The notes below the pieces were generated by a model that saw only the letters and a list, made by a program, of their open reading frames with translations, made no database searches and had not been told where the DNA came from. The translations under genes were made by a program, and so were the position numbers. From Flavobacterium gelidicaeli (GTDB lineage: Bacteria > Bacteroidota > Bacteroidia > Flavobacteriales > Flavobacteriaceae), in contig NZ_JABSNK010000003.1 of assembly GCF_013294005.1 (NCBI RefSeq), positions 1-64,000 of the forward strand: a stretch of DNA of 64,000 nucleotides, in the 5' to 3' direction. Below, piece by piece: positions 6,318-60,770 of the stretch (positions are counted from its first letter, which is position 1; each line of letters starts with the position of its first letter).

Positions 6318-6457
6318 TTGTTTAGGGTATTTGTGTTTGAAAATTTAAAAATAAGTAAAAAATTAAGGTTTATAAGCAGTAAAAATAAATTTAATAGTTG
6401 TTTAAGCTTTTGGGGAGTTGTTTGTGTTCGTTATTCAATAAAAAAGGAGTTGTTAAT

Positions 6458-12933: not shown

Positions 12934-12961
12934 GGGCTTATTGTTATTAAAATACATACCA

Positions 12962-40889: not shown

Positions 40890-40970
40890 GGAGCTATTTC
40901 CTGCTGTCTACTGTATCTTTTTATTTTTATAAAGAAAAAAATAAAAAGGATGCCGTGACCATCAGGGCTA
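40890..40970 (+). repeat. Structured intergenic element, copy C
   Basis: Starts GGAGCTATTTCCTGCTGT and ends ACCATCAGGGCTA. The inner arms GTATCTTTTTATTTTT and AAAAATAAAAAGGAT pair strongly. It lies between the LOG-family gene and the first cassette. It is the same family as copies A, B and D. Confidence 0.75.
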
Positions 40971-41174
40971 AAAATCCAGAATACTAAAGTACTTCTTTTT
41001 TTAAAAAACTACGCGCAAACTCTTTTTTTATTTTAGAAAAAGCTTAGGTTTTGCTTTATAATTCTTCCATTAAATAATCAAAAACAATACCATTTAATGG
41101 AATTTAAACAAGAAAAAACTTAATATTTAATGTTGAGATGAGAAAAAGAGGTGTATATTTGATGATATATAGAA

Positions 41175-41183
41175 GTTGTGCGT
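41175..41183 (+). other. Left boundary of the cassette array (attI-like or first recombination core)
   Basis: GTTGTGCGT at this place is the reverse complement of ACGCACAAC at 41746-41754, which closes the first cassette. No palindromic arm stands to its left, unlike all other junctions. It is therefore the position where an attI site or the remains of one would be expected. No integrase gene is seen beside it. Confidence 0.6.
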
Positions 41184-41214
41184 CAGTTTAGCCAAACTAA
41201 ATCAATTAAAAAAG

Positions 41215-41739
41215 ATGAAGATAATATATAGTTTGTTTAATCTTAAAAAGTATGTTGACAGAGATTTTAATTTATTTTTAAACAATAATGAGTTTAAGAA
41301 ATTTATTAATAATGTTGAAGATATAACAATCAAATATAGTTCACTAGAATTTTTCAAACCAAATAATCTTAAAGAAGAACAAATTGGTTATCGATTTAAT
41401 CATTTGGGAAAATCATTATTAGGAACAAATAAAGGAGATTGGAAAAAAAATTGGGTTGCTATTGGTTATGATGGAATTGGAGATCCAATATTTGTAGATT
41501 TTGAAAAGCCAAATTTACCAGTTTTCACATCCGAACATGACGAAGACGAATGGAATGAAAAATATATTGCTATTTCTCTAGACAATTTTAAAAAAATTCT
41601 AGATGATTTAAGAATATTAAAGCAAAAAGCAGAAAATGGAATCTCCAAATTTGAAGTAAACACTTTTTTGGAAAAAACGAAAAATGAAAATAAATATATG
41701 GATGTGGAATATTGGAAAATGTTCCTAGATAGTGAATAA
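41215..41739 (+). CDS. Cassette 1: SUKH (SMI1/KNR4-like) protein
   Basis: A 174-residue soluble protein. WVAIGYDGIGDPIFVDFEKP, followed by PVFTSEHDEDEWNEKYIAIS, is the typical SUKH superfamily core. Many SUKH proteins neutralise toxins of contact-dependent or polymorphic systems, but no toxin gene is next to it. I use the ATG at 41215. The frame is open further to the TTG inside the recombination core at 41176, which would not be a sensible start. It is the first gene of the cassette array, 32 bp after the left core. Confidence 0.8.
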   Translation: MKIIYSLFNLKKYVDRDFNLFLNNNEFKKFINNVEDITIKYSSLEFFKPNNLKEEQIGYRFNHLGKSLLGTNKGDWKKNWVAIGYDGIGDPIFVDFEKPNLPVFTSEHDEDEWNEKYIAISLDNFKKILDDLRILKQKAENGISKFEVNTFLEKTKNENKYMDVEYWKMFLDSE

Positions 41740-41745
41740 AACCGA

Positions 41746-41881
41746 ACGCACAACAGCGGTTTGCATAAATGGCTAAATATGTGGTAAATTCACGTTTATC
41801 TTTCGCAAGAAATTATATCTTAGCCGAAAATAATCGGTTACGAAGTTCGCCACTTCTGCAAGCCGCGACACGTTGGCAGTA
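41746..41881 (+). repeat. attC-like site 1
   Basis: 136 bp. It opens with ACGCACAAC (partner of the GTTGTGCGT at 41175) and closes with GTTGGCAGTA. Arms AACAGCGGTTTGCA and TGCAAGCCGCGACACGTT pair with unpaired extra bases on one side, as in attC sites. The inner part holds CCGAAAATAATCGG, a small hairpin. Confidence 0.75.
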
Positions 41882-41921
41882 ACTTTAGCGCCGAAAAACG
41901 AGAAACAGAAATCATATAGAA

Positions 41922-42329
41922 ATGGGAAAACTAAATATCCAAAGAACAAACGAATTTAATAATAGAGTTAGACATTATCGAATTTATATTGACAATAAAA
42001 AAGTTGGAACAATTGAAAATGGCGAAAACAAAGACTTTGAAATTGAAGAAGGAAAACATGTAATTGAAGCCAAAATTGATTGGTGTGGAAGTCCAAAAGT
42101 ACATTTAGAAATTAAAAATGGAGAAATAAAAAGTTTAAAAGTTGGAGGTTTTAAATACGGAAAATGGTTAATACCAATTTCTTTAGTCTTTATTCTATTA
42201 TCTTTTTTGCTAGAATATTTATATGACTTTGAATATACTATTTTTCTAGTTTATCCTGTTTTGTTACTTATGGTTTATTATTTAACATTTGGTCGAAATA
42301 AATATCTGACCTTAACATCAGAAATCTAA
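41922..42329 (+). CDS. Cassette 2: PEGA-like domain membrane protein
   Basis: A 135-residue protein. The first 75 residues form a small beta domain (HYRIYIDNKKVGTIENGENK, then EIEEGKHVIEAKIDW), resembling PEGA-type or carbohydrate-binding-like sandwiches. Two membrane helices follow (about 83-98 and 105-122), with a short tail. No specific family is assigned. It is framed by GTTGGCAGTA and TACTGCCAAC, an exact 10 bp inverted pair. Confidence 0.7.
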   Translation: MGKLNIQRTNEFNNRVRHYRIYIDNKKVGTIENGENKDFEIEEGKHVIEAKIDWCGSPKVHLEIKNGEIKSLKVGGFKYGKWLIPISLVFILLSFLLEYLYDFEYTIFLVYPVLLLMVYYLTFGRNKYLTLTSEI

Positions 42330-42344
42330 AGTATTAAGAAAAGC

Positions 42345-42482
42345 TACTGCCAACAGCGGTTTGCAAAAATAGCGAAATATGTGGTAACATCATGTTTATC
42401 TTCCGCAAGATATTTTATCTTATCCGAAAATAATCGGTCACGAAGTTCGCCACCATTGTAAAGCCGCGAGACGTTATAGGCA
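42345..42482 (+). repeat. attC-like site 2
   Basis: 138 bp, from TACTGCCAAC to GTTATAGGCA. Same arm type as site 1 (AACAGCGGTTTGCA against AAGCCGCGAGACGTT), with several substitutions. Confidence 0.75.
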
Positions 42483-42504
42483 AGAACACACGCACGATTA
42501 AAAT

Positions 42505-43206
42505 ATGAAATACAAAATACTATTTTCACTCGCTTTGATTGTAATACTTGGTAGTTGTAAAAAGCAAACTATGGAAAAAAAATATTACGTAATTTCAAAT
42601 GCAGATTCGATTAGTGAAGCGTGGAAGAAATCAGCAAAAGTTCCGCCACCTTTTGTCCCATACAACTTAAAATGGTATTCAGACGTAGTTTTTATTTTGG
42701 ATTCAAGTAAAGTTTATGCTTATCAAACAGAAAAGACTCATACAGGTTCAGGAAATAATATGGATTTTGAATATCCAAATTTAATTGGTTTAAAACCAGA
42801 ATATTTACTAACGATTAACAGCGAAAATTTTGTTTCGTTTTTATTGAATAACAATGATATTTTTGGAATATTTCCCGACAATTCCGTTCAACCAATTATT
42901 TATTTAGCAAGCCAAACTGATACTGTAAAAAGTGTTGCACTAACTCAATTATGGAAAAGACTTGAAAATAATAAAAGTAGAACATTCTTCTCGGTTCGAA
43001 GAACAACTGAAGAAGAAAACATAGTACTTTTATACAAAAAGAATAACAAAGAGTTTTTACCTGAAAACGTAAAATGGACTTCCAACTTCTATAATGGAAA
43101 AGTAAAGCCTTTAACGACAGAATATAAAGAAATTGAGGAATCAAATCAACTTATAAGAAAAGCAAAAGAGAATTTTAAAAAAAAGAAAAGGGCAATTGAA
43201 ATGTAA
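42505..43206 (+). CDS. Cassette 3: lipoprotein of unknown function
   Basis: The 233-residue protein has a lipoprotein signal peptide with lipobox LGSC (Cys18). The rest is a mixed alpha/beta domain followed by a basic, helical tail (about 205-233). No known family was recognised. It is probably attached to a membrane facing the periplasm or outside. Its cassette runs from GTTATAGGCA at 42473 to TGCCTATAAC at 43223, a perfect 10 bp inverted pair. Confidence 0.75.
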   Translation: MKYKILFSLALIVILGSCKKQTMEKKYYVISNADSISEAWKKSAKVPPPFVPYNLKWYSDVVFILDSSKVYAYQTEKTHTGSGNNMDFEYPNLIGLKPEYLLTINSENFVSFLLNNNDIFGIFPDNSVQPIIYLASQTDTVKSVALTQLWKRLENNKSRTFFSVRRTTEEENIVLLYKKNNKEFLPENVKWTSNFYNGKVKPLTTEYKEIEESNQLIRKAKENFKKKKRAIEM

Positions 43207-43213
43207 CAGTTCC

Positions 43214-43344
43214 TGCCTATAACAGCAGTTACACAATACACAAGGCTTTGGTGGAATTATCGTTTCGCAAGACCTTTACGTTAAGCCGAAAACACTCTGA
43301 TTCCGAACCCTTGTGCATCGTGTAGCTGCAAAACGTTAGTGGCA
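43214..43344 (+). repeat. attC-like site 3 (different arm sequence)
   Basis: 131 bp, from TGCCTATAAC to GTTAGTGGCA. The arms have other bases than sites 1 and 2 (AACAGCAGTTACACAATACA against GTGCATCGTGTAGCTGCA), yet they still pair with each other. This change on both sides supports a folded structure as the conserved feature. Confidence 0.75.
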
Positions 43345-43377
43345 AGCTTCGGAAAAATCATCGTAAAAATCAACTTT

Positions 43378-44229
43378 ATGAATTCATCATATTATCAAAA
43401 TCAAATTAGCCGAATCGAGAAAGATGTTGCTGACTTACAGAAAAAAATCGCCGATGAAAATAAAAAGGAAAATGACAAGGTAAAACAAATAGATTCTGTT
43501 AATAGATCAATTAGTAAAAGTACTTCAATTTCAACTTTACAAAGTAAACAACGTCAAATTCAGGGTTATCAAAATGATATTTATAACTGTAAAAAGAAAA
43601 GCGCTGATTATCAAAAACAGATTGCGAATAAATCTGTTGAATTGGGGAAAAAGAAACAAGATCTGAGGAAATCAGAGGAAACCCAGCAGAAAAAATTTCA
43701 AAAAGAGCAACTTGATTTTCAGAAAAAACTTCAGAGAGATATTGATCAACAAAAAAATCAATTGGAATTTTTAGTTAATCAAAATTATTCTTCTAAAACT
43801 ACAATCAATCACGATGAAGAATCTGACAAAGAATTTGATTTTTTTATTTCTCATGCATCGGAAGATAAACAAGAAATTGTTCGAGATTTAGCAGACGCAT
43901 TAAAGGAAAACGGTTTTAAAGTTTGGTATGATGAATTTGAATTAAAAATTGGTGACAGTTTACGAAAGAAAATAGATAATGGACTTTCTAAATCGAGATT
44001 TGGAATTGTAATAATTTCACCATCTTTTGTGAAAAAGAACTGGACAGAATACGAGTTAAATGGAATGGTTGCTCGAGAAATGAATGGTCATCAAGTTATA
44101 TTACCTATCTGGCATAAGATTTCCAAAGATGAAGTTTTAAAATTTAGTCCATCGCTTGCCGATAAAATGGCTTTAAATACTTCAATTCATACGATTGAAG
44201 ATATTGTAAACTCATTAAAAGAACTTTAA
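43378..44229 (+). CDS. Cassette 4: coiled-coil TIR-domain protein
   Basis: A 283-residue soluble protein. Residues 8-135 are a long charged coiled coil. Residues 152-283 are a TIR domain: box 1 is FDFFISHASEDK, then FKVWYDEFELKIGDSL and FGIVIISPSFVKKNWTEYEL. By position, Glu226 (four residues after Trp222) fits the catalytic Glu of NAD-cleaving TIR domains. Bacterial TIR proteins often act in phage defence by consuming NAD or making signal molecules. No partner gene is beside it. I use ATG 43378. A GTG in frame at 43339 lies inside the recombination core and is rejected. Confidence 0.88.
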   Translation: MNSSYYQNQISRIEKDVADLQKKIADENKKENDKVKQIDSVNRSISKSTSISTLQSKQRQIQGYQNDIYNCKKKSADYQKQIANKSVELGKKKQDLRKSEETQQKKFQKEQLDFQKKLQRDIDQQKNQLEFLVNQNYSSKTTINHDEESDKEFDFFISHASEDKQEIVRDLADALKENGFKVWYDEFELKIGDSLRKKIDNGLSKSRFGIVIISPSFVKKNWTEYELNGMVAREMNGHQVILPIWHKISKDEVLKFSPSLADKMALNTSIHTIEDIVNSLKEL

Positions 44230-44234
44230 GCCAA

Positions 44235-44368
44235 CCACTAACAGCGGTTTGCAAAATGGCGAAATATGTGGTAAATTCACGTTTATCTTTCGCAAGAAAT
44301 TTTATGTTAGCCGAAAAATATCGGTTACGAAGTTCGCCACTTCTGCAAGCCGCGACACGTTGGTGGCA
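44235..44368 (+). repeat. attC-like site 4
   Basis: 134 bp, from CCACTAAC (partner of GTTAGTGG at 43335) to GTTGGTGGCA. Arms are nearly identical to site 1. Confidence 0.75.
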
Positions 44369-44403
44369 ATTATCTCGCAGATACCGAAAAATAAGACAAA
44401 TAA

Positions 44404-44895
44404 ATGAAATCTAAAATAAAAATAACTTCCTTTTTGCTTGTTCTAATTATAAATTTTCTTGTGGGAATTTTATTTTGGACGATTTTCATAAAAGCAGGTA
44501 ATCGAATATTTGAATATGGATTTTGGACTTACAAACCGTTTATTTTATTTCTCATAATTTTCCTTGAAATATTTGCTTTAAGTTTAGTTTTTCAACTAAA
44601 AAGAGTAATAATTGAAAAAGATAAAGTCATTTTTAAAAACTTAATATTCCCATTTTTGAAAACAGAAAGATTATTTACTTATTATGACTTTTCAAAAATT
44701 GTAGAGCGATATTCTAAATCAGGTTATCACGAATCTTTGTGGTTATTTAAAAACGGAAAATTAGAAAATCAAATCTCTAGTTTTTATTATTCAAATTATA
44801 CAAAACTCAAATTTGAAATGAAAGTCCAACATAAAGGAAAATTAAAAATAAATAGTTTTAAACAAATATATTATAAACTTGGTGGAAAATTATAA
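44404..44895 (+). CDS. Cassette 5: small membrane protein with PH-like tail
   Basis: The 163-residue protein has two membrane segments (about 8-30 and 44-66). A soluble part follows, with VIIEKDKVIFKNLIFPFLKTERLFTYYDF and FEMKVQHKGKLKIN, which looks like the beta strands of a bacterial PH-like domain. No family is assigned firmly. The cassette is bounded by GTTGGTGGCA (44359) and TGCCACCAAC (ends 44906), a perfect 10 bp inverted pair. Confidence 0.65.
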   Translation: MKSKIKITSFLLVLIINFLVGILFWTIFIKAGNRIFEYGFWTYKPFILFLIIFLEIFALSLVFQLKRVIIEKDKVIFKNLIFPFLKTERLFTYYDFSKIVERYSKSGYHESLWLFKNGKLENQISSFYYSNYTKLKFEMKVQHKGKLKINSFKQIYYKLGGKL

Positions 44896-44896
44896 C

Positions 44897-45031
44897 TGCC
44901 ACCAACAGCGGTTTGCAAAATTGGCGAAATATGTGGTAAATTCACATTTATCTTTCGCAAGAAATTTTATCTTAGCCGAAAATAATCGGTTACAAAGTTC
45001 GCCACTTCTGCTAGCCGCGACACGTTAGCGG
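44897..45031 (+). repeat. attC-like site 5
   Basis: 135 bp, from TGCCACCAAC to GTTAGCGG. Arms are as in site 1 (AACAGCGGTTTGCA against CTAGCCGCGACACGTT). Confidence 0.75.
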
Positions 45032-45101
45032 TCAGGCTATGACGACCGTGCAGACAACAAACAGAAGTGCAAAAAATAAACAAACGACAAATAAATAGAC
45101 A

Positions 45102-45686
45102 ATGAAAAAAATTCTAACAATTCTGACAGTAGTTTTATTTACAATGACTGCTTTTGGACAAGTTGACCAAACAATTTGGGACAGTTTAAAAACAGTTTCA
45201 ACCGACAATTATGAATTCAAAGTTCCTTACAAGTGGCGACAAATGCCAGCAGGCGGAAAAGGACCAGAACAACTTTTAGAAGCAAATGGACTTGCACTTC
45301 CAGTTTCATTTAATGGTTCGCCTGTTATGGTGACAATTTTTTTCGTGAAGCAAGACGGCAAAAATCTTGACGACTGCAAAGACAAATGTTTAAGCGGTTA
45401 CAGAGCAAACCCCGACAGAGAATTTCCTAAAAAATTCAAGGACGGTCAAGAAAAAATCAAACTTGCTTCGGGACAAGACGCATACTTTTTAAACACTCGT
45501 TTTTACAGAAAATCCAAAGGACTTAATCAAAGTCGTTTTGACTTAGTTGTTTATTCAGACAAAGCACAAAGCGGTTACATATACACTTTATCAATTCAGT
45601 ATTCTGACAATGACTATAAATTTGAAGCAGACAACAAACTTGCTGACTTTGCTAAACAAATCTATTCTTACTTGACACTAAAATGA
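45102..45686 (+). CDS. Cassette 6: secreted protein with deviant codon use
   Basis: A 194-residue protein with a signal peptide (1-20, ending FGQ) and a single alpha/beta domain with NYEFKVPYKWRQMP and YIYTLSIQYSDNDYKFEAD. The pattern resembles PsbP-like or DUF1795-type secreted domains, but I cannot confirm this. All 16 Asp codons are GAC, while neighbouring cassettes use GAT almost only. This points to a separate origin. The leader of 78 bp after the core is longer than in other cassettes. Confidence 0.72.
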   Translation: MKKILTILTVVLFTMTAFGQVDQTIWDSLKTVSTDNYEFKVPYKWRQMPAGGKGPEQLLEANGLALPVSFNGSPVMVTIFFVKQDGKNLDDCKDKCLSGYRANPDREFPKKFKDGQEKIKLASGQDAYFLNTRFYRKSKGLNQSRFDLVVYSDKAQSGYIYTLSIQYSDNDYKFEADNKLADFAKQIYSYLTLK

Positions 45687-45722
45687 GAGAGCTAAACGAC
45701 AACGGACGAAAAGAAGCCCAAA

Positions 45723-45858
45723 CCCCTAACAGGCGTTTGGCAAAAGTGGCGATTCGGTGCTCCGCAGACACATTTGTGGTTAAACAAAGTTTGGTTTTCC
45801 GCATCAACATTTGTGGTGAAAATCGCCACCTTCGCCAAGCGCCAAAACGTTAGCTGTA
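45723..45858 (+). repeat. attC-like site 6 (different arm sequence)
   Basis: 136 bp, from CCCCTAAC (7 of 8 bases match GTTAGCGG at 45024) to GTTAGCTGTA. The arms differ from site 1 (AACAGGCGTTTGGCAAAAG against CGCCAAGCGCCAAAACGTT) but pair well with each other, again a compensated change. Confidence 0.75.
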
Positions 45859-45917
45859 ATGCGCTCGCAGAACGAAAACCTCAAAAAATAAGAACCTACT
45901 TTTAATATTATTTATAA

Positions 45918-47249
45918 ATGAATATGCTTAACTTTTTCGGACTAAATAAACCTAATAAGGATCCTTATTGGGAACTTAACGAGTCACAACAATTTAGACC
46001 AAAATTAGATAAAGGCGATTTTTTCAAATTAACAGGTTTTGATTTTGGTTGGTTTGTTCTCGAACCAATTTCAGAATATATTCAAAATGCAAAAGGAGAG
46101 CTCACAAAAGGTAAAAATCTATCTTACGGTCAAAAAGCATTGTACTATTGGTGGTATGTTGATGCGCAGGTAAATAATGGTGGATTTACTCAATATTATT
46201 ATAATGATTATGGAAAATACACACCAACAATCATAAAAGGATTGAAATATATTGGAGACAATAAAATGGCGGAACTTGTGAACCGTTCTTACGAAATATA
46301 TCTAAAAGAAAATAGAAAAATTAAAGATGCTCGCCTTGGTGGTTGGGAAGATTTTAGTAACTTATATAAAGAAATAAAAGATTTTGACGATTTAGATTAT
46401 GAATATTATGATTTAAATAATCAAACGATGAAAAATATTGAGAACTATATTCGTAAAAATCCTAATGAAATATGTTTAGATGAAGAAGGTAATGAATTTG
46501 ATCTAAACTTTTCAGGAGAACTTAAAACCTATCATTCAAACAAGAATATTAAAGAGCTAATTCCACTTGAAAAAGGTGTCATTTCAGGAACATTTAAAAG
46601 TCATTTTGAAAATGGACAATTAAATGAAGAAATTCATTACTTAAAAGGTGAGCAAACTGGAGAAAGAATTGAATATTATGAAAATGGTAATAAAAAATAT
46701 ATTATAACTAAAAATTTATCGAAAAATCAATTTGAGCATTCATTGTATTATGAAAACGGAAATCAAAAAAAAATAGAGCACAAGCAATTAGATAAAGATG
46801 AAAGGATTGGAGAATATAAAGAATGGCACGAAAACAAACAATTAGCAGAATCGGGAAAATACATTTCAGATTATGAACGTGATGGCTCTTGGCTTAAATT
46901 TCATAAGAATGGAAGTAAAAAACTTGAAGCTGAATTCAAAAATGGAGAACTCTTATTACATAATTTTTGGGATGAAAATGGTGAACAAATTTTAACAAAC
47001 GGAACGGGGCTTTACATAACTGAATACTCTATTTATGATGGCAGAATTGACAGAAATGAACAAGAATACAAAAATTACAAAAGACACGGAAAGCAATTTT
47101 CTTACAGTAATGGAAAATTGACATTGTATCAAGAAATGACTGATGATAGAGAAAATGGAATAACAAAATCTTACGATGATGATGGAAATATTGAAGAAGA
47201 AACCATTTATCAAAACGGAAAAGAAATATCAAACAAAAAATACAAATAA
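45918..47249 (+). CDS. Cassette 7: DMP19-like domain plus MORN-type repeats
   Basis: A 443-residue protein without signal peptide. The N-terminal 200 residues contain ALYYWWYVDAQVNNGGFTQY, the hallmark of DMP19/DUF4375 domains. From about residue 225 there are repeats of the MORN_2/YwqK type, such as FENGQLNEEIHYLKGEQTG, YYENGNKKY and WHENKQLAESGKY. Repeats of this type occur in cell-surface or antitoxin-annotated proteins. No function can be given. The cassette is framed by GTTAGCTGTA and TACAGCTAAC, a perfect 10 bp inverted pair. Confidence 0.8.
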   Translation: MNMLNFFGLNKPNKDPYWELNESQQFRPKLDKGDFFKLTGFDFGWFVLEPISEYIQNAKGELTKGKNLSYGQKALYYWWYVDAQVNNGGFTQYYYNDYGKYTPTIIKGLKYIGDNKMAELVNRSYEIYLKENRKIKDARLGGWEDFSNLYKEIKDFDDLDYEYYDLNNQTMKNIENYIRKNPNEICLDEEGNEFDLNFSGELKTYHSNKNIKELIPLEKGVISGTFKSHFENGQLNEEIHYLKGEQTGERIEYYENGNKKYIITKNLSKNQFEHSLYYENGNQKKIEHKQLDKDERIGEYKEWHENKQLAESGKYISDYERDGSWLKFHKNGSKKLEAEFKNGELLLHNFWDENGEQILTNGTGLYITEYSIYDGRIDRNEQEYKNYKRHGKQFSYSNGKLTLYQEMTDDRENGITKSYDDDGNIEEETIYQNGKEISNKKYK

Positions 47250-47263
47250 TTTAGAATATGCAC

Positions 47264-47400
47264 TACAGCTAACAGCGGTTTGCATAAATGGCGAGATATG
47301 TGGTAAATTCACGTTTATCTTTCGCATTAAGTTTTCGTTAAGCCGAAAACTGAGCGGTTACAAACTTCCAGCCATCTCAAAGTGGCGAAACATTGTAAAA
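47264..47400 (+). repeat. attC-like site 7 (3' arm partly decayed)
   Basis: 137 bp, from TACAGCTAAC to ATTGTAAAA. The 5' arm is intact (AACAGCGGTTTGCATAAATG), but the 3' arm is altered (CATCTCAAAGTGGCGAAACATT) and the core GTT reads ATT. Confidence 0.65.
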
Positions 47401-47505
47401 CATTTGACTCAACCAACAGACCATTTTACTAAATCAAAGTAATTGATCGCTAAATTGAATTTTTATTCAAAACACAAAACGAATAAATTTAAATAAACAT
47501 CTAAT

Positions 47506-48171
47506 ATGAAATTGAAAACAATTTTACTTTTGACAATTCTTTTAATAAGTAAAAACTTTTACTCTCAAAAAAAAAATAGAGAAAAAATCTACTTTACACC
47601 TGACAGTTTATCTTTTATTCATTTATTGCCAAATCAAAAATTTGGTTTTATTTCATATATAGGAAATTCACCATTATCATACTATAATGATGAAAATCAA
47701 ACAAAAGGACATATAGATGGCCCATATTTTACAATTAATGAATTTGGTTCTGGAGAATATTTGATTGAAAACAAAAAAATGAAATTGAACTTCATTAAAC
47801 CGATACATTCAATTGACAGTATTTCAATTAAAGAAACTGAAAACTTAACTGATTCAATAAAAATTAAAATATCTTTCAAATCTTATTTGAATTCTGGAAA
47901 AGACGACGGAATTGGAATTGGAAGTACTATAAAATCACAGGATAGTTTAATAAACATAAATACGATGTTTGAAAGTTTTACATCATTCTCAGTTAAAAAA
48001 AATAAACTTCCTTTAAAATTAATAATCAACGAAAAGTATAATTTAGAAATAGTAAGCGACAGAAATCAAGACATTATTCTTTTTGTGAACGACTTTAAAA
48101 AATTCACGACTGATAATATTGAAAATAAAGTGTTTGAGTTTAATACTCTAACTGAACAAACGAATGAATAA
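47506..48171 (+). CDS. Cassette 8: secreted protein of unknown function
   Basis: The 221-residue protein has a signal peptide (1-20, ending FYSQ) and a beta-rich domain. I do not recognise a family. It is likely periplasmic or surface exposed. The cassette starts with ATTGTAAAA (47392) and ends with TTTTACAAC (48177-48185), an 8-9 bp inverted pair with one change in the core. Confidence 0.7.
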   Translation: MKLKTILLLTILLISKNFYSQKKNREKIYFTPDSLSFIHLLPNQKFGFISYIGNSPLSYYNDENQTKGHIDGPYFTINEFGSGEYLIENKKMKLNFIKPIHSIDSISIKETENLTDSIKIKISFKSYLNSGKDDGIGIGSTIKSQDSLININTMFESFTSFSVKKNKLPLKLIINEKYNLEIVSDRNQDIILFVNDFKKFTTDNIENKVFEFNTLTEQTNE

Positions 48172-48176
48172 AAATA

Positions 48177-48318
48177 TTTTACAACAACGTGTATAAAAAA
48201 TTGCGTAGTTTAGTGATTAACCAAAGGCAGTTGCATTTTTATTACGTCTGATTTTCCTTCGGAAAATCCTCGCATACAAACCCGAAACTATTCTTATACA
48301 TAAACGCTATGCGTAATG
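48177..48318 (+). repeat. attC-like site 8 (third arm type)
   Basis: 142 bp, from TTTTACAAC to about GCTATGCGTAATG. Arms with AACGTGTATAAAAAATTGCG and TTATACATAAACGC pair only in part. It is related in layout but not in sequence to sites 1-7. Confidence 0.5.
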
Positions 48319-48374
48319 TTTGAGCAAATAAGAGACTAAAAGAACTAAACCAAAAATAATTTACTAAAAGAAAA

Positions 48375-48809
48375 ATGAAAAAAATACTTCTAAAAATCAA
48401 TTTATTAACACTACTAACATTAGTCATTTCGTGTACAAAAAACGATGATAACTCTTCAAATGTGGATTCAATAATTGGAAAATGGGAATACTCAACTCAA
48501 TATGAAAATGACATTCAATTTACACAAAACGATTGTCAACCATCAACTATTGAGTTTACAAGTAATGGAAATAGAACCGACAAATATTATGATCAAAACC
48601 TAGCTAATGAATGTGTTTTAGTTGATAATATTAATCTTACTTGGACAAAAATTAATTATAACACTTATCAATTCAATCAGAATGGAGATATTTATACTGA
48701 AAATGTAACATTTGAAAACGGTAACAGTAAACTTATTTTAGAAAGTTCTGATAATGATGGAAATGGGAATGTTATAATTTATAAGTTTGTATATAATCGA
48801 ATAAATTAA
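48375..48809 (+). CDS. Cassette 9: lipocalin-like lipoprotein
   Basis: The 144-residue protein has a lipoprotein signal with lipobox VISC (Cys20) and a beta domain that starts with IIGKWEYSTQYEND and continues with STIEFTSNGNRTDKYY. The GKW start and the strand order resemble the lipocalin-like (DUF4488/DUF5004-type) lipoproteins common in Bacteroidota. The ligand is unknown. The cassette ends at CACTACTCACAAC (48810-48822), which matches its start GCTATGCGTAATG in 9 of 13 bases. Confidence 0.75.
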   Translation: MKKILLKINLLTLLTLVISCTKNDDNSSNVDSIIGKWEYSTQYENDIQFTQNDCQPSTIEFTSNGNRTDKYYDQNLANECVLVDNINLTWTKINYNTYQFNQNGDIYTENVTFENGNSKLILESSDNDGNGNVIIYKFVYNRIN

Positions 48810-48857
48810 CACTACTCACAACAGCAGTTTGCATAAATGGCGAAATATGTGGTAAAT
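48810..48857 (+). repeat. attC-like site 9, 5' half only
   Basis: CTCACAACAGCAGTTTGCATAAATGGCGAAATATGTGGTAAAT, split over 48816-48857, is the 5' half of the usual site. The similarity ends at about 48857, so the 3' half was lost or replaced. Confidence 0.6.
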
Positions 48858-49038
48858 AAGAATGTTGACGAGAGTAACTTAGAATCCATTTTTAAGAATA
48901 GCCTATTACTTAAAAACTATTTATTTTAGAAATTAAAAAAAATACGAAATTGAAAGTGTAATAACTGAAATGAACCACTACATAATGCCAATAACCAATA
49001 GAGTAATTGCTACTCTTGTGGAATCTAATAATTATTAA
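48858..49038 (+). pseudogene. Possible coding remnant inside broken attC-like site
   Basis: Directly after the broken site two short stretches look coding: KNVDESNLESIFKNSLLLKN, ending at a TAG, and, in another frame, YEIESVITEMNHYIMPITNR, ending at TAA 49036-49038. They may be pieces of one gene fragment with a frameshift that replaced the 3' half of site 9. No known family was recognised and the reading is weak. Confidence 0.3.
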
Positions 49039-49070
49039 ACCGTAATTTCAATTTATATAAAGTAAAAACT

Positions 49071-49373
49071 ATGAAAAAGATAATAATTTCTATTTTAACT
49101 ATTTTAACAATTATAATTAGTGTTTACTTTTTTTTAAAACATGAAGAAAATAATAGTTACGAACAAAAAGGGAATAAGATGGTTATGCAAATTTATGAAT
49201 TTAAAAAAAATCATAATAAATTACCAAATTCTATATCCGATTTTAAAGCTGATACAGAAATGGGAGAGGGACCTTACTATGAGAAATTAGATGATTCAAC
49301 ATTTATTGTGTTTTTTAATATAGGATTTGATGATAAAATCATTTTTAATTCAAACTATAAAAAATGGGAATAA
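49071..49373 (+). CDS. Small membrane-anchored protein in cassette region
   Basis: The 100-residue protein has an N-terminal membrane helix (about 3-22) and a soluble domain with MQIYEFKKNHNKLPNSISDF, a pattern seen in pseudopilin-like or small periplasmic proteins. I cannot name a family. It lies between a broken and a decayed attC-like site, so it is probably an old cassette. Confidence 0.65.
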   Translation: MKKIIISILTILTIIISVYFFLKHEENNSYEQKGNKMVMQIYEFKKNHNKLPNSISDFKADTEMGEGPYYEKLDDSTFIVFFNIGFDDKIIFNSNYKKWE

Positions 49374-49383
49374 AAAAAAAACC

Positions 49384-49500
49384 TCTTTCAACAGCCATTT
49401 TGAGGCAGCTGGATTTTAGTGGAATTACCGTTTTTTTTTATATATATTCTTAAAGTCAAAAATAATCGGTTTATAAGTTCCCCACCAAGCTAAGATATGA
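49384..49500 (+). repeat. attC-like site 10, decayed
   Basis: Begins CTTTCAACAGCC and retains AAAAATAATCGGTTTATAAG and CCCCACC of the usual inner part and 3' arm. Arms no longer pair well. Confidence 0.5.
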
Positions 49501-49576
49501 AATGCGTCACCAGACCAAATTAGAAATACCTTACGTTAAATTGAGCTATTATACACTAAAATATTGTAAAAATTTT

Positions 49577-50218
49577 ATGAAAACGCTTCAAACTACATTT
49601 TCCGTACTTTTTTTATTTTTTATAAGCCTATGCTACAGTCAAAATTATAAGTTTGATAAAATAGTAAAGCATAACTTATCTCCATATTCCGAACAGACTA
49701 CTTTCTTCAATTCTGAAGATGACTCATAATATATGAGCATATATTACCGTAACGATTCTCTTGTATCTGTAATATCTGATATAGATAAAAATCAAATGCA
49801 TTATTTTCATATTGAAAAATTAGATTCTTTAAAATTCTATTTTATAAAAACAAAAAAGTGGGTACAAAAAGATACTAAAAATGTCACCGAAAATAAATTT
49901 GAATTCTCTGAGATAAAAGAAGAAAAAGGAAATAAAGAGATTACTTTGAAAATTTTTAATAAAAGGGAAAAGAAAGTTGCGCAATACCAGTTTATCATAA
50001 GAGAAACAGATAAAAATTATTTTCCTATAATCAAATTCTCATTTTTTGAGACAGAAGTAAACAATAAAACAAAACCACCTTTTAATTTTATAATTTTAGA
50101 AGCAAATGGGAGAAATGAAAGTGGTAGAACTATAAAATACAAATTAAAATCAATCAACGATATTGACCTGAAATTTCAATACCGCATAACAACCATTTAT
50201 AACACTATATATAAATAA
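49577..50218 (+). pseudogene. Secreted protein gene interrupted by an in-frame TAA
   Basis: The frame from ATG 49577 gives a signal peptide (MKTLQTTFSVLFLFFISLCYS, cleaved after SQ-like residues) and runs to NSEDDS, then meets TAA at 49727-49729. It continues in the same frame as YMSIYYRNDSLVSVISDID for another 160 residues to 50218. The continuous frame on both sides of one stop shows a recently inactivated gene. An internal ATG at 49733 could restart but would lack a signal peptide. Family is unknown. Confidence 0.75.
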
Positions 50219-50634
50219 CTGTTTATTTCTAGTCTACTTCCTAAAATTATCATTGATTTTCATTAGCATAATTACGTAACTAATTACAAATAAAACTTTA
50301 TGAATCAGCAGATTGTAGCTCACATAAAAGAACGAATTTAAAACTTAAGTAGAAAACTTTATTTGCTAAAATATTTTACTCTTTTTTTCCTATTTTAAAG
50401 GTAAAAGCAAGATGCCTAACACATTAAATAAAAAATAAAAATAGAATAAATAAACTGCCAAACGCATAACAGTAGTTAAACGAGATTTGGGTATTTGGCT
50501 AAATTTAAAGATAGTTTTATACTTGGGAAATTTGTGGATAATGGAAAAAACACACATTTTTATCCCAAACCTCTTGTAACGCTAAGATATTGTAGGTAGT
50601 TTTACCAAATACCTATAATAACGAATAAAATATT
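50219..50634 (+). other. Gene-free stretch with a decayed attC-like site
   Basis: 416 bp without a credible gene. From about 50459 to 50597 it holds a palindrome with GAGATTTGGG and CCCAAACCTC arms, AACAGTAGTTAAACG on the left and GATATTGTAGGTAG on the right. This is the layout of an attC-like site of a different sequence type. Confidence 0.45.
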
Positions 50635-51825
50635 ATGAGACTATTATTTAACTTTATCTTCATTTTACTTTTTACCGTAAAAATAACAGCACAAATTAAA
50701 AAAGAAACTTATCAATTTTCTAAAGACATAGAAAATAAAATTGATGAAGATACTTTGGCTTGGAAATATCAAATAGGTGCAACAGATTATTCGATTAGCG
50801 AATATTATTTGCAAGCACTAAAAACGTGGGATAAAATTGGAAGTGGAATTAAAACAATTACAAAACAAGATAGTTTATATTTTAATTCATTCAAAAAAGT
50901 AGATGCAAAAGAGTACATAATTAATCGTTCAAAAAACGAAAAAATAATTATCATAAATGAAGCACATCATAATTCTCGACACAGAGTTTTTACAACATCA
51001 CTTTTACAAGGTTTGTATGATAATGGTTACCGTTTCTTTGGATTAGAAGCACTTTCAGTTTCAGACTCGTTGATAAATAAAAGAAAATTCCCAATAATAG
51101 AAAGTGGTTATTATACTAAAGAACCACAAATGGCAAATTTAATTCAAGACGCAATTAAAATTGGATTTAAATTGTTTGAATATGAAGTATCAGATGATTC
51201 AAATGGAAAAGAAAGAGAAATTATTCAAGCAAAGAACATTACTAAATTAATTAATGAAAATCCAAATTCTAAATTTTTAATACATTGCGGTTATGATCAC
51301 GTTATTGAAGGGACACCACAGAATAAAAGTTGGGGAAAAGCAATGGCAGGTAGATTGAAAGAATACACTAATTTAGATCCATTTACAATTGACCAAGTTG
51401 CTTATTCTGAAAAAGGCGATATAAAATTCATCAATCCATATATAAAAATCGTTAATTCAGATAAACCAATTATTATGGTAAATGAAAGCGGAAAACTTTT
51501 TAATGGAAGTGAAACTAATGACCAAACTGATTGTAAAATAATTCATCCATTAACAGAATATGTAAACGAAAGACCAAATTGGTTATTTTTAAATGGTGTA
51601 AGAAAGGAATACAGTATCCCAAAATCTAAAATTCCTGAATATCCTATCTTAGCTTTAGCATACAGAAAAAATGAATTTGAACAGAATGGAATTCCAGCAG
51701 ATTTAATTGAAATTTTCAATAATGAATCTAAAATAAATCTTATACTAGAAAAAGGAACATATAAAATAATCATTAAAGATAAAAATTATAAAATTATCAA
51801 TAAATTCGAAATAAAAATTAAGTAA
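50635..51825 (+). CDS. Secreted ChaN/erythromycin esterase-like fold protein
   Basis: A 396-residue protein with a signal peptide (1-19, ending TAQ). The core segment IIIINEAHHNSRHRVFTTSL followed by YDNGYRFFGLEAL resembles the E-H-H pattern of the ChaN, TraB/TIKI and erythromycin esterase (EreA-like) superfamily. A later FLIHCGYDHVIEG adds another His. Members bind haem or metals or hydrolyse lactones, but the substrate here is not known. The C-terminal 60 residues form strands with YKIIIKDKNYKIINK. Assignment rests on motif similarity only. Confidence 0.55.
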   Translation: MRLLFNFIFILLFTVKITAQIKKETYQFSKDIENKIDEDTLAWKYQIGATDYSISEYYLQALKTWDKIGSGIKTITKQDSLYFNSFKKVDAKEYIINRSKNEKIIIINEAHHNSRHRVFTTSLLQGLYDNGYRFFGLEALSVSDSLINKRKFPIIESGYYTKEPQMANLIQDAIKIGFKLFEYEVSDDSNGKEREIIQAKNITKLINENPNSKFLIHCGYDHVIEGTPQNKSWGKAMAGRLKEYTNLDPFTIDQVAYSEKGDIKFINPYIKIVNSDKPIIMVNESGKLFNGSETNDQTDCKIIHPLTEYVNERPNWLFLNGVRKEYSIPKSKIPEYPILALAYRKNEFEQNGIPADLIEIFNNESKINLILEKGTYKIIIKDKNYKIINKFEIKIK

Positions 51826-51952
51826 CTGCCACTGACTGCGGTTTGGATAAATGACGAAATATCTGATAAACTGAAGTTTATATTTCGTAATAAATTTTAT
51901 CTTTAACGGAAAATAATCGGTTTCAAAAGTCATTAACCTCGGCTAGTGCCTA
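51826..51952 (+). repeat. attC-like site, decayed
   Basis: Starts CTGCCACTGACTGCGGTTTGG, with GACGAAATATCTGATAAACTG and GGAAAATAATCGGTTTCAAA further on, which align with the inner part of sites 1-5. The 3' core is not recognisable. Confidence 0.5.
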
Positions 51953-51968
51953 GACAATACTATAAATT

Positions 51969-52112
51969 ATGAGAAAAACACTGTAAATAATTACGCTTCT
52001 ATTCTCAATCGCAAATTACGCCTGTATAGGTAACGACAAGAGCGTAACTGAAAAGTATATTCAATCTGAATTTGTTGCTAAAGTAAAAAGCATTAAAAAT
52101 AATAAACAATGA
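51969..52112 (+). pseudogene. Lipoprotein gene fragment with in-frame stop
   Basis: ATG at 51969 gives MRKTL and then TAA at 51984-51986. The same frame goes on with IITLLFSIANYACIGNDKSV and ends at TGA 52110-52112. The YAC sequence would be a lipobox, so this is the remains of a short lipoprotein gene. It overlaps the next ATG (52109). Confidence 0.55.
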
Positions 52113-53095
52113 ATTTAAAAAAAGCTATCGTATTATTTATTTTGAGTTTTAATTCAATTTTTGCACAAGAATTAATTTCTTATGATGATAATATTGAACA
52201 AGCTGAAGAATATTTAGAATCTAAAAATTATAGTAAAGCAGGTGAACACTATAAAAAGGCATTTAAAATAGTTAACGAAAATGTAATAACTTCTGATGTG
52301 CGCTTTGATGCAGCAATTGCATTCTCACTTTCCAATGATAAGAGCGCTACATACAAACAATTATTTAAAATTTCTAAAAAAGGAATATTCGATGATTATA
52401 CAAACTATGAGAACATAGTCGATGAAGAAGCATTTGAAATTTTTCACAATGAAAAAAAATGGAAAAATCTTATTAAAAAATTAAAAATTAAGAAAGTTGA
52501 AGCTAATAATAAAGTTAATGAGCCTTTAATTCAATCTCTGTTAGAACTTAAAAATAAAGACCAAAAGATATGAGAATTCTTTATGGAAACGCAACAAAAA
52601 TATGGTGATAATTCAGATGAATTTAAAGAATATGGAATAAAATTGAATGAAGTTGATTCCCTGAATTTTATCGAATTTGAAAAAATTATCAACAAGTATG
52701 GATGGCCAGGACCCGAAGTAATTGGAGAAGATGGTGTGAACACACTATTTATGTTAGTACAGCATAATAATAACTTAGATATCCAGAAAAAATATTTACC
52801 CTTAATAAAAAAAGCGGTTGATGATGGTAAACAATTTCCAAATGATTTGGTCTATTTAGAAGATCGGATTGCTATGTACAGTAATGAAATGCAAACATAT
52901 GGCACTCAATTAAAAATGGATGAAAACAAAGAATATTATGTTTGGCCAATCAAAAATCCCAAAGATGTAAATAAAAGAAGACTCAAAATAGGATTAGATA
53001 CTTTAGAAGAATACTTAAAAAGATTTGGTGTAGTTTGGGATGTTAAAAAGCACAAAGAAAAAACATTAAAGATATTTAACGAGATCAAGAAATAA
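52109..53095 (+). pseudogene. DUF6624-type secreted protein gene, interrupted by TGA
   Basis: The first part (154 residues) has a signal peptide ending IFAQ and TPR-like helices with YDDNIEQAEEYLESKNYSKA. It ends with KNKDQKI at TGA 52571-52573. The same frame continues with EFFMETQQKYGDNSDEFKEY and a DUF6624-like domain (IINKYGWPGPEVIGEDG, LVQHNN, YLEDRIAMYSNEMQTYGTQ) up to 53095. A CGA to TGA change would explain the stop. In the family the region DQK-R-EF is continuous, which supports a single broken gene. Confidence 0.8.
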
Positions 53096-53107
53096 GGTGT
53101 GGCAATA

Positions 53108-53223
53108 GTACTTTGGCTGGATTAATTTTTTGTGTGATTAGCATTTTTTTCCTATTCTAGTTAGTCCCAAAGCTGAGCGGTTACGATTTTACCACTATTT
53201 CAAAGCCGAAAAACATTAGCTAT
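53108..53223 (+). repeat. attC-like site, decayed
   Basis: GCTGAGCGGTTACGATTTTACC and CAAAGCCGAAAAACATTAGC (53171-53220) recall the 3' arm of sites 1-7. The 5' part is only loosely similar. Confidence 0.4.
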
Positions 53224-53275
53224 CAGTTGTAAGACTTAAAAATTAAAATATAGCCAATAAACAAGAAAATAATTT

Positions 53276-54163
53276 ATGAAACCAACGAATAAACTACATT
53301 ACTATTTATATACATTTTTCAGATATTTTGCAGGAACAATGATTTTAATTTATGCCTTTGCAAAAATTATTGGAACACAATTTACTACATCTTTACTAAC
53401 GTATGACACTCCCATTGGAGAATTAGATGGAATGGATTTAGTTTGGTTTTATTTTGGGTATTCTTATCAGTATGCTGTATTTATTGCCTTATCACAAATT
53501 GCTGTATCATTTTTATTGTTTTTCAGAAAAACAGTTCGTCTTGGTGCTGTGCTGTTCTTATGCATAATGGCTAATATTATCGCTGTTGATATTGCTTTTG
53601 ACGTTGATTTTGATGCCTTTATAATGGCAATTATTTTAACATTTATGGGATTATTTATATTTCTGTCAGAGTTTCCCTTGTTTATCCACTATTTTATTAC
53701 TGAGCCTAGCCTATACCAAAAAGACAATATGCCGAATTGGGTAAATAAAATTCATAGAATTAAATTTCTATACATTCCTATTGTCTTTTTTGGTTTTTTT
53801 GGTTTCTTATTTTATATCAATAATTTAGAAAAAAATGAAAATGATTTTTATGGTGTTTGGCAACTTGAAAAAGGAAACCCAAAATTCAATAAATTATATT
53901 TTGAACGAGATAGTTTTCAAACTGTTGAATTTGGAAAAACAAAAATGGACAGAAGAGGTCGTTTCACTTTTGACTTAACACATAAAAAAATCACATTAAA
54001 ATCTTATCCAAATGATTATATCAAAAAAATATATTCGCAAGCAAATTTTGTAATTGATACAACTAAAAGAGAGACTTTATTTAATGGAAATTTCGAATTA
54101 AGAAACAATATTTTAAAGTTAAAAAATGATAATATAGAACTTATCTTTAAAAAAATAAGATAA
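53276..54163 (+). CDS. Membrane protein with DoxX-like helices and lipocalin-like tail
   Basis: The 295-residue protein has five to six membrane segments in the first 190 residues (FFRYFAGTMILIYAFAKI at 13-30 opens a DoxX-like pattern). A soluble tail follows (about 195-295) with FYGVWQLEKGNPKFNKLYFE and LFNGNFELRNNILKLK, which looks like a small lipocalin-like barrel. No family is named. It sits between decayed attC-like sites. Confidence 0.68.
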   Translation: MKPTNKLHYYLYTFFRYFAGTMILIYAFAKIIGTQFTTSLLTYDTPIGELDGMDLVWFYFGYSYQYAVFIALSQIAVSFLLFFRKTVRLGAVLFLCIMANIIAVDIAFDVDFDAFIMAIILTFMGLFIFLSEFPLFIHYFITEPSLYQKDNMPNWVNKIHRIKFLYIPIVFFGFFGFLFYINNLEKNENDFYGVWQLEKGNPKFNKLYFERDSFQTVEFGKTKMDRRGRFTFDLTHKKITLKSYPNDYIKKIYSQANFVIDTTKRETLFNGNFELRNNILKLKNDNIELIFKKIR

Positions 54164-54167
54164 ATAA

Positions 54168-54298
54168 AACTTAGCAAACAGCAGCTATTTAGCCAGATTG
54201 GGTATTTAGTGTAATTAGTATTTCCATTTCTTATTTTTGGTATTATATACGTAGTTATAAACTCTCCAATCTTGTCAAGCGCGAAAATTGTAGCACTA
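54168..54298 (+). repeat. attC-like site, decayed
   Basis: TTAGCAAACAGCAGCTATTTAG on the left and CTCCAATCTTGTCAAGCGCG on the right pair over AGATTGG and CCAATCT. Layout agrees with an attC-like palindrome, sequence is far from site 1. Confidence 0.45.
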
Positions 54299-54342
54299 AT
54301 TTTAGTATATGTAAACTAGACAAACTTGATTATAATAAAAAA

Positions 54343-55491
54343 ATGAAAAAAATATTTGCCTTTTTATTGATTATTACAGCGACAAATACTTTTGCTCAAA
54401 GTATTACTTCCGACTCTCTTGATAAAAAAATTATTGCACATTTTGATGAGTTTAAACCTGAATTATATCGATTTAGTGGATTGAGTTTTTACGGAGAATC
54501 GAAAGCAACTTTTGAAAAAGAACAAATAATAAAAGAATTACAACTTTATAATGAAGTAAAAAAAGCTATCTTAATCAATAAGCCAACAAACAGCGTATTT
54601 GCATTGTGCCACAATCTTCTAATCCATAGTCCAGAAAAAGGCAAAGAGTTGTTAGCTCTTTTGAATAAGCCAACAGAAAACAATGAGACAATCGCTAATC
54701 TTTTCACAGAATTAATTTTTACTGCTGAATATGGTGAACAAATGGCTTTGGATAATTTAAAATCTAACAATATTGGATGGAGTAAAATTTGGGCTGGTTA
54801 TTTAAGTTCACTTGCGATCTATGAATCCTCAATTCCAATAATTGAAAAGATTTTTCAACAGACTAATGACACAGAAATTCAGCAAGACCTTATTGGTGCG
54901 TTAATGTATATAAGTAATCCAAAATCAATTGAATTTATAAAGCAAATAATTGAATCCACTAAGTATGACGAAGTGCAAACAAAAGCAATTTATGCATTAG
55001 CAGAACTTTCTGGAAACGATGGAATTAAATATTTGGAAAGTATCAAAACTATAGGTAAAAAATCTAAAGTAGAAAAAAAATCAAGTCTTGATTGGTTAAA
55101 AAATGATACAAGTCCTCAAAACAAATACGGTACATTGGTTACAAATGATATTGGTTTTATTGAAAGATTTGGAGATATTAAATCTCCAGTAATTATTTGG
55201 CTCGAAAATGAAGGTCTTCTAGAGTTAAAGAATGCACAGAATCCAAAATCTTTAATTAAAAATAAAAAGGACCAATTACTTGATATTATTATTGAATCAA
55301 AAGGTTTTGGACTTGAAGCTGTTAAAGCGCAATTATTTTTAAGTATTGAGTATACAGATATTGACAAGTTGCTAAAAATGAGACAGATTTGCTATTATTC
55401 ACCAAACAACTTTACAAAAAGTAGAATGAATACAATAGGAATATTTATTAGATATTTACGCAAGACAAGTAATATTAACGAGTTCAAATAA
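54343..55491 (+). CDS. Secreted HEAT-repeat-like protein
   Basis: A 382-residue protein with a signal peptide (1-19, ending FAQ). The middle contains helix pairs of the HEAT or PBS-lyase type, for example IQQDLIGALMYISNPKSIEFI and VQTKAIYALAELSGNDGIKYL. These form a curved solenoid used for protein binding in the periplasm. The remaining part is helical without known family. It is the last larger gene of the array. Confidence 0.72.
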   Translation: MKKIFAFLLIITATNTFAQSITSDSLDKKIIAHFDEFKPELYRFSGLSFYGESKATFEKEQIIKELQLYNEVKKAILINKPTNSVFALCHNLLIHSPEKGKELLALLNKPTENNETIANLFTELIFTAEYGEQMALDNLKSNNIGWSKIWAGYLSSLAIYESSIPIIEKIFQQTNDTEIQQDLIGALMYISNPKSIEFIKQIIESTKYDEVQTKAIYALAELSGNDGIKYLESIKTIGKKSKVEKKSSLDWLKNDTSPQNKYGTLVTNDIGFIERFGDIKSPVIIWLENEGLLELKNAQNPKSLIKNKKDQLLDIIIESKGFGLEAVKAQLFLSIEYTDIDKLLKMRQICYYSPNNFTKSRMNTIGIFIRYLRKTSNINEFK

Positions 55492-55500
55492 CCATTTCAA

Positions 55501-55521
55501 ATTAGCTAAACGTTAGTGGCA
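55501..55521 (+). repeat. Last recognisable cassette core
   Basis: TAGCTAAACGTTAGTGGCAATC contains GTTAGTGGCA at 55512-55521, the same core type as that at 43335, directly after the HEAT-repeat gene. The 5' arm is missing. It marks the right edge of the array. Confidence 0.55.
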
Positions 55522-60647: not shown

Positions 60648-60726
60648 GCGTTCCCTCCCGCTTTTCGTTACAATCTTGTGTGGCAAAACACTTACCCCAC
60701 AAGGATTTTCACTGCAATCGGGGCTA
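60648..60726 (+). repeat. Structured intergenic element, copy D (divergent)
   Basis: GCGTTCCCTCCCGCTTTTCG at the start, ACAATCTTGTG and CACAAGGATTTTCACTG inside, and CAATCGGGGCTA at the end. It has the same order of boxes as copies A-C (ATCTT, inner stem, AAGGAT, GGGCTA) with another 5' box. Confidence 0.65.
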
Positions 60727-60770
60727 TTTATAACTATTTGTGGTTTTTATTACGTTTAGGTATTGCGCAT

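Follow-up and report, generated by a model that had tools for sequence, protein, structure and literature searches.

We analysed the first 64,000 nucleotides (hereafter the window) of contig NZ_JABSNK010000003.1 (C3:1-64000) in the 4.06-Mb assembly of Flavobacterium gelidicaeli. From position 41175 to about 55.5 kb of the window, plus-strand genes alternate with palindromic sites, and each gene together with its site is here called a cassette (Table 1). The sequence-only reading of this stretch had described an integron-like cassette array without integrase, with palindromic sites of 131-142 bp. The sites measure 117-124 nt from AAC through GTT and about 131-142 nt once both unit-specific ends are added, in agreement with that description; six are intact (41752-45851), a seventh has ATT in place of GTT, and those further right are decayed or truncated up to 55.5 kb. 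Several features can be read from the sequences, namely the units and their complementary ends, the structure and covariation of the sites, their linkage to a recombinase, the attI-like starts of arrays and the copies of whole units cut at GTT. They suggest that the window carries a secondary cassette array of an integron-like system built on a tyrosine recombinase other than the integron integrase IntI. Recombination itself we infer, and we put the probability of this reading at roughly 0.8.

The start of a cassette is complementary to the end of the same cassette. The start/end pairs proposed earlier were recovered, six of them (cassettes 1 to 5 and 7) by an exact complementarity search; the pair of cassette 6, which has one mismatch among its first eight bases, was absent from that search and was read separately. 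Because the same exact search returns many chance pairs of 8-12 bp elsewhere in this AT-rich window, the pairs carry weight only through their position at the sites. For statistics, 133 sites from the window, other arrays of the genome and relatives yielded 96 neighbouring pairs. At least seven exact complementary bases occur in 73 of these 96 pairs, against 4.6% for mismatched cassettes, and the pairing at the sites is not due to chance. Complementarity is 58-100% at positions 1-10, zero at position 11, 67-84% at positions 12-15 and at chance level further on. The arm is about 15 bp long, and position 11 is mismatched in 96/96 pairs: the start always has A there, and the end, read as its reverse complement, has G in 69 pairs, C in 24 and T in 3. 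The same profile recurs in 31 pairs from 13 loci of further genomes, most of which belong to other families of the class; 26 of these pairs match at 8 or more of the 10 positions.

The complementarity up to 10 bp that had been pointed out is thus present and runs on to about 15 bp beyond the mismatched position 11, but a length above 7 bp is not unique to these sites. In several canonical cassettes of the same phylum (L214-L227), complementarity extends past the 7-bp R box to 8-15 bp, so that arm length alone is not diagnostic and long arms were dropped as a unique mark. These canonical cassettes serve as examples only: the attC list came from a loosened detector (a stricter first version found none) and holds wrong-strand and repeated entries. 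The pattern GTTRRRY fits 7/96 cassette starts and the canonical R-box form fits 6/96 ends, GTT and AAC being set in these counts by the search rule itself; frequent departures from the RRRY rule after GTT had already been noticed from the window. The longest open reading frame (ORF) runs along the array in 67 of 79 cassettes and against it in 5, and 7 have no ORF of at least 60 aa; for this count 17 of the 96 stretches had been removed beforehand for poor end match.

The sites follow the form AAC-N-S4-T-S5 ... S5'-G-S4'-N5-GTT. In 12 sites picked before this rule was written, 102/108 stem cells are paired and the T and the G are constant in 12/12; these two form a wobble pair on the top strand, and their bottom-strand counterparts, C and A, are mismatched. 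All 12 sites have at the L-box position a one-to-one pair (T/G on top, C/A on the bottom) with no extrahelical base there. The strict rule, which is this form with one mismatch, matched once when the window was shuffled 30 times by mononucleotide (0.03 per 64 kb) and recovers 5/6 intact window sites, missing that of cassette 2; the latter has three mismatches in its inner stem. Among 28 sites from several genomes all nine pairs vary on both sides, with a covariation of 0.75 versus 0.16 after shuffling. When circular sites were modelled, the bottom strand folded more stably than the top strand in 6/6.

Searching the whole genome with the integron-integrase model gave no match over the cut-off, nor was there any on contig C3 at an expectation value (E) of 0.001 or below, so the description "without integrase" stands locally. 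For the genome it does not, since another contig, C17, carries a dedicated recombinase together with an attI-like element and an array. This 585-aa tyrosine recombinase is the genome's best match to the integron-integrase model and is followed by five same-strand sites in 5.5 kb up to the contig end. The attI-like element, 41 bp downstream of the recombinase stop, heads an array of the same sites as those in the window. In the own genome, with up to three mismatches, the pattern of this element is found at C3:41153-41177 (0 mismatches), C17:5499-5523 (1) and C6:82677-82701 (3), and a backwards control of the pattern gave no match in the own genome. As the pattern matches at its start, the window array can be taken as a platform that has an attI-like copy of its own but no integrase; the C6 match also starts an array. 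With the first site model, 88 matches were obtained in the own genome among 150 scored candidates, 80 of them below E 0.001. Of the own-genome site matches, 41 fall on C17, on C26-C29 or at the start of C6; these pieces are probably a single array that was split up in assembly. In the C17/C26-C29 arrays, several cassettes (L007:5060-5500, L099-L102) belong to one family, which is 440-570 nt long and has similar repeats.

The linkage between recombinase and sites extends to other genomes. A recombinase match at E ≤ 1e-40 was found in 39/100 relatives, three of which have the long form, as does the own genome. A motif search recognised 40 recombinase loci, 24 from the genome-relatives set and 16/80 from a set of named organisms, and around these loci 238 kb downstream and 167 kb upstream were searched. 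Strict site matches are downstream and on the same strand in 64/64 cases. Among the loci of the genome-relatives set with more than 3 kb downstream, 14/15 carry a site, and several contigs stop 1-3 kb past the recombinase on the array side, which is what repeats would cause. In the named set, strict sites stand beside the recombinases of Flavobacterium aciduliphilum, Flavobacterium sp. UBA7663, Algoriphagus ornithinivorans, a Cyclobacterium, a Sphingobacteriales metagenome-assembled genome and a Bacteroidota one; a strict match beside a Pontibacter recombinase (L201) was discounted as AT-rich. Recombinases of the C17 type point toward the attI-like element and along the cassettes. When cassette starts were located via each first site's own end, the first cassette was found to begin 41-155 bp past the recombinase stop, beside an AT-rich element, at 10/16 loci; at the other six, it is the first strict site that was further off. 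Counting at most the best 35 sites per genome, genus genomes with the recombinase (n = 31) have a median of 15 sites and those without it (n = 29) a median of 3 (p = 2.6e-4).

Comparison within and between genomes suggests that whole cassettes move with junctions at GTT. A 571-nt cassette on C28 is 97% identical to the C17 cassette next to the attI-like element, and the 100-nt flanks of the two copies show 44% identity upstream and 54% downstream, random pairs averaging 51%. Another genome (G045) bears a 732-nt cassette in three copies of 99.7-100% identity and shares a 926-nt cassette with G047 (83%). Among genus genomes, 59/299 have a match at E ≤ 1e-40 to the first seven cassettes of the window, many via the sites alone; the bodies of cassettes 2, 3, 4, 5 and 7 were matched across the genus, and among the matches listed none joins two bodies. 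Twelve loci with cassette homologues were inspected, the comparison being across species. Alignment starts at base 1, after another site, for cassette 3 (G479) and cassette 5 (G455, 84.9% identity); cassette 3 in G439 adjoins an attI-like element and aligns only from base 24, and for cassette 7 the alignment starts at base 61 in G584 and at base 69 in G016. None of the homologues of cassette 4 in five other genomes adjoins a site found by the site scan. Whole units cut at GTT thus do recur when species are compared, and complementarity holds in other arrays, so that neither of the two outcomes named earlier as refuting the cassette reading was obtained. Together with the attI-like start of the window array, these results support the earlier suggestion that the cassettes are mobile and that their system is a relative or an analogue of integrons.

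By its sequence, the linked recombinase is not an IntI: it has no IntI-specific insertion, falls outside the IntI clade and carries extra N-terminal modules. The insertion is absent in an alignment with IntI1, and the spacing of the catalytic motifs is 64-65 residues in 30/30 relatives versus 106 in 23/23 IntI rows (those passing the motif filter among 30 IntI loci). In a tree of 121 rows, the 24/24 labelled IntI rows and one long-spacing Nitrosomonas row form one clade (Shimodaira-Hasegawa-like approximate likelihood ratio test, SH-aLRT, 100), and all 30 relatives fall inside a separate clade of 84 rows (SH-aLRT 99); as this is a quick tree with long branches, it is used only for the separation of the IntI clade. 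The C terminus bears an IntI-like SPLD motif, and by sequence the solved structure closest to the catalytic part is IntI4 (2a3v), barely ahead of archaeal XerA. The N terminus comprises three ββαββα modules in the 585-aa form and, by alignment, one similar stretch in the 350-aa forms. Foldseek gave no match for the modules at E ≤ 0.001; in a second structure comparison, XPB N-terminal domains as well as eIF1 reached a Z of about 6, the HARP domain of SMARCAL1 one of 4.3 and MutS one of about 4. DUF5710 matched weakly in 4/15 members (best E 0.02). Since these fold matches are below a meaningful level and both module models have a low predicted template modelling score (0.42 and 0.35), a role of the modules in sensing distorted DNA is only a lead. 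The closest plasmid match outside Bacteroidota is a Neorhizobium recombinase (37.7%, versus about 33% for IntI1); no site turned up next to either this recombinase or the one on the Pontibacter plasmid.

A second site model has matches in 61/100 relatives and, with the class sampled evenly, in 184/295 Bacteroidia genomes from 109/155 genera (E ≤ 1e-4; at most the 12 best candidates per genome); Flavobacterium luminosum has 55 site matches. The same model matched 0/10 genomes of other phyla and gave one or two matches in 4/15 canonical-IntI genomes of the phylum. A canonical integron integrase over the cut-off occurs in 84/296 phylum genomes, of which 83 belong to other classes and one to the same class, all outside the own genus, family and order. 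In 299 kb surrounding canonical IntI genes, the strict rule found no site. Of the four canonical-IntI genomes with site matches, two, G194 (L259) and G376 (L260), also show a recombinase near the site; it is insertless, about 490-500 aa long and encoded upstream of the site on the same strand, so that both systems coexist in these two genomes.

Several observations weigh against the reading proposed here. When two mismatches are allowed, the matches around the 40 loci are 65 downstream on the same strand, one downstream on the opposite strand and one upstream on the opposite strand. The recombinase at L083 (G022:C1:2196000-2212000) has no site in the 11 kb downstream, with 18 site matches elsewhere in its genome. 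On C17 itself, a ParD/ParE cassette with complementary ends and its own site (L007:7650-8436) lies upstream of the recombinase on the opposite strand; its site has GTA for GTT and for this reason is missed by the strict rule and found by the models. Sites also occur in genus members without a recombinase match at E ≤ 1e-40. Among named Bacteroidota with a recombinase relative, 5/10 have a site match at E ≤ 1e-4 and 5/10 do not, so the wider recombinase clade is not uniformly tied to the sites; recombinase relatives in site-less genomes may serve another purpose or use other sites. The 28 sites used for covariation were themselves chosen by the pairing rule. When the core site is folded with the outer arms left off, the bottom strand is the more stable one in just 5/10 sites, so a choice of strand by stability is not clear. 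The recombinase relatives whose genomes have no site match at E ≤ 1e-4 are from Rufibacter, Seonamhaeicola, Algibacter, Adhaeribacter and Mediterranea (genomes of L147, L145, L173, L158 and L181).

Of the alternatives, the one that survives best is that the cassettes move as ordinary double-stranded circles via Xer-like recombination at short sites, the long palindrome serving something else such as termination or RNA folding (Xer-flanked, or dif, modules are genes between short XerC/XerD sites). The closeness of the recombinase to XerA would fit, and so would the absence of the IntI domain that has been tied to folded single strands (PMC4792948). A double-stranded site, however, would need neither the complementarity and the internal stem, both kept while the sequences change, nor asymmetries at fixed places, and insertion is directional; we consider this explanation unlikely. 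Less likely still is an ordinary cluster of attC sites lacking integron integrase (CALIN), in which canonical attC cassettes were left or scattered by a canonical IntI. Such a cluster would have the same layout of cassettes and palindromic sites, and IntI4 is the closest solved structure, if just ahead of XerA. Yet no integrase passes the cut-off in this genome, canonical integrases of the phylum all lie outside its order, the linked recombinase lacks the insertion and the IntI affiliation, and both the rarity of GTTRRRY starts and the lack of strict sites near canonical IntI genes set the two kinds of site apart. With a recombinase that is not IntI and sites outside the canonical attC rules, the strict CALIN label does not fit the window. 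Non-mobile intergenic hairpin repeats, of an RNA or repetitive extragenic palindromic (REP)-like kind between unrelated genes, would agree with sites that fold well, sit between genes and are covered by no Rfam family, but we reject inert repeats as highly improbable, because every site matches the far start of the unit it belongs to, not that of a neighbouring unit, and the copies of whole units have their junctions at GTT.

Under the integron-like reading, each cassette would consist of one gene, mostly in one orientation, and a palindromic site of about 120 nt. In the circular cassette, the bottom strand of the site would fold into a hairpin with an outer arm of 15-16 bp, a bulge of about 4 nt on one side, a 4-bp stem, the fixed C-A mismatch and a longer inner stem. 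We infer that the C17 recombinase acts on the sites and that the folded single strand is its substrate. Encoded just upstream of its own attI-like element and array, it would insert cassettes at A/GTT of attI-like targets, one of which begins the window array, and would also excise and re-insert them. The fixed mismatch may mark the strand, and the N-terminal modules may take the place of the IntI-specific domain in recognising the folded site.

The window cassettes carry diverse genes (Table 1). The protein of cassette 4 matches TIR_2 in Pfam (E 6.8e-23) and, in PADLOC, the candidate defence family PDC-S66 (E 4.9e-113) and ThsB (2.3e-44), and that of cassette 7 has a DMP19-like domain (E 4e-27) and MORN repeats. 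The ORF of cassette 1 is SMI1/KNR4-like only under the Pfam cut-off (E 0.0029; 18.6 bits, 25.4 needed). Pfam searches gave no family above the cut-off for cassettes 2 and 6 and no match for cassettes 3 and 5. The gene to the left of the array is conserved in 59/60 relatives. In 11 relatives fetched, no site lies within 1.5 kb on its array side, and one of them (G017) has a site on the other side of this gene within the 1.5 kb viewed. Four Flavo-1 RNA (RF01705) matches lie at 40893-40973, 12848-12936 and 60650-60729 (minus strand) and at 6455-6532 (plus strand), the first of these being just left of the array.

Table 1. Elements of the cassette array in the window. Bit scores are from the first site model (R1); paired positions are the complementary start and end of a cassette.
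Feature	Position	Strand	Gene	Site	R1 score	Remarks
attI-like element	41145..41177	+				homologous to element 41 bp past C17 recombinase stop; first cassette GTT at 41175
Cassette 1	41175..41871	+	ORF 41176-41739	41752-41874	127.8 bits	ends 9 bp complementary (41175/41754)
Cassette 2	41872..42472	+	ORF 41922-42329	42352-42475	129.1 bits	ends 10 bp complementary (41872/42354)
Cassette 3	42473..43334	+	ORF 42505-43206	43221-43337		ends 10 bp complementary (42473/43223)
Cassette 4	43335..44358	+	TIR-domain gene 43339-44229	44240-44361		ends 8 bp complementary (43335/44242)
Cassette 5	44359..45023	+	ORF 44404-44895	44904-45026		ends 10 bp complementary (44359/44906)
Cassette 6	45024..45848	+	ORF 45102-45686	45728-45851	83.3 bits	pair 45024/45727
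Cassette 7	45849..47391	+	ORF 45918-47249	47271-47394 (ATT for GTT)	101.8 bits	ends 10 bp complementary (45849/47273)
Truncated site	48803..48870	+				from sequence; repeat family D3 at 48803-48857
Decayed site	49390..49506	+			51.9 bits, E 6.3e-10	
Possible decayed site, weak	50468..50591	+			17.1 bits, E 0.18	
Decayed site	51834..51958	+			52.3 bits, E 5e-10	
Decayed site	53109..53217	+			26 bits, E 0.0012	
Possible decayed site, weak	54180..54289	+			19.4 bits, E 0.05	
Truncated site end	55487..55521	+				array end, with GTTAGTGG; from sequence only, missed by site models

Going beyond this genome, we suggest tentatively, at a little under even odds, that Bacteroidia have an integron lineage of their own. 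Its recombinases would lack the IntI-specific domain, having lost it or never had it, and would read hairpins via the N-terminal ββαββα modules and the fixed mismatch; the lineage would be either an independent invention or a survivor from before the domain, present in the majority of sampled genomes and sometimes beside canonical IntI. A second large gene-shuffling system may have been overlooked in flavobacteria and many of their relatives, and the findings suggest a large reservoir of mobile genes, with candidate defence and toxin-antitoxin cassettes among them. According to the excerpts of PMC8352920 and PMC2426708 available to us, the IntI-specific domain and canonical attC sites serve both to define integrons and to search for them; the present system has neither and would escape the usual searches. 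For Bacteroidetes, the accessible part of the IntegronFinder 2.0 paper gives In0 elements and one complete integron, in Salinibacter (PMC9024848). A cassette system of this kind is not described in the full-text literature searched, a body that leaves most subscription papers and all bioRxiv preprints outside. The 20-residue I2 domain has been proposed, in the pages of PMC4792948 at hand, as the step that enabled an ancestral recombinase to use folded single strands, and a cassette system without I2 makes this claim directly testable.

Among known systems, integrons share with the present one the cassette of one gene and one palindromic site with complementary ends and a GTT junction, the array headed by an attI-like element with one insertion orientation, and a tyrosine recombinase with an IntI-like catalytic part and an SPLD-type C terminus. 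They differ in that the C17-type recombinase lacks the IntI insertion, belongs to a separate clade and has extra N-terminal modules, and in that the sites do not follow the GTTRRRY rule. It is the bottom strand of attC that folds in integrons; there, the first extrahelical base picks the strand (PMC2727003, in extract) and an IntI-specific helix contacts attC (PMC4792948); where canonical sites have the extrahelical base, the sites described here have a fixed mismatch. In Treponema-type integrons the recombinase gene likewise points toward attI (PMC3607928, in extract), but it encodes an IntI. The window resembles a CALIN as a cluster of sites with no recombinase gene beside it, but its sites are not canonical attC and the genome has a linked non-IntI recombinase. 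In CTX phi, XerCD recombines a folded single strand although it lacks the IntI domain (PMC4792948), as the C17-type recombinase would do here; this phage has no recombinase of its own and no cassettes, whereas in the flavobacterial system recombinase and arrays are linked. In its "integron-like" subgroup, a survey of tyrosine recombinases found the insertion not fully conserved; in the portion of that survey seen, the insertion is tied to integron function and no cassette sites are described for the insertless members (PMC8138268). Insertless relatives had thus already been noticed as sequences, not tied to cassette sites in that portion. The system described here belongs with integrons by function and layout, not in the family based on IntI.

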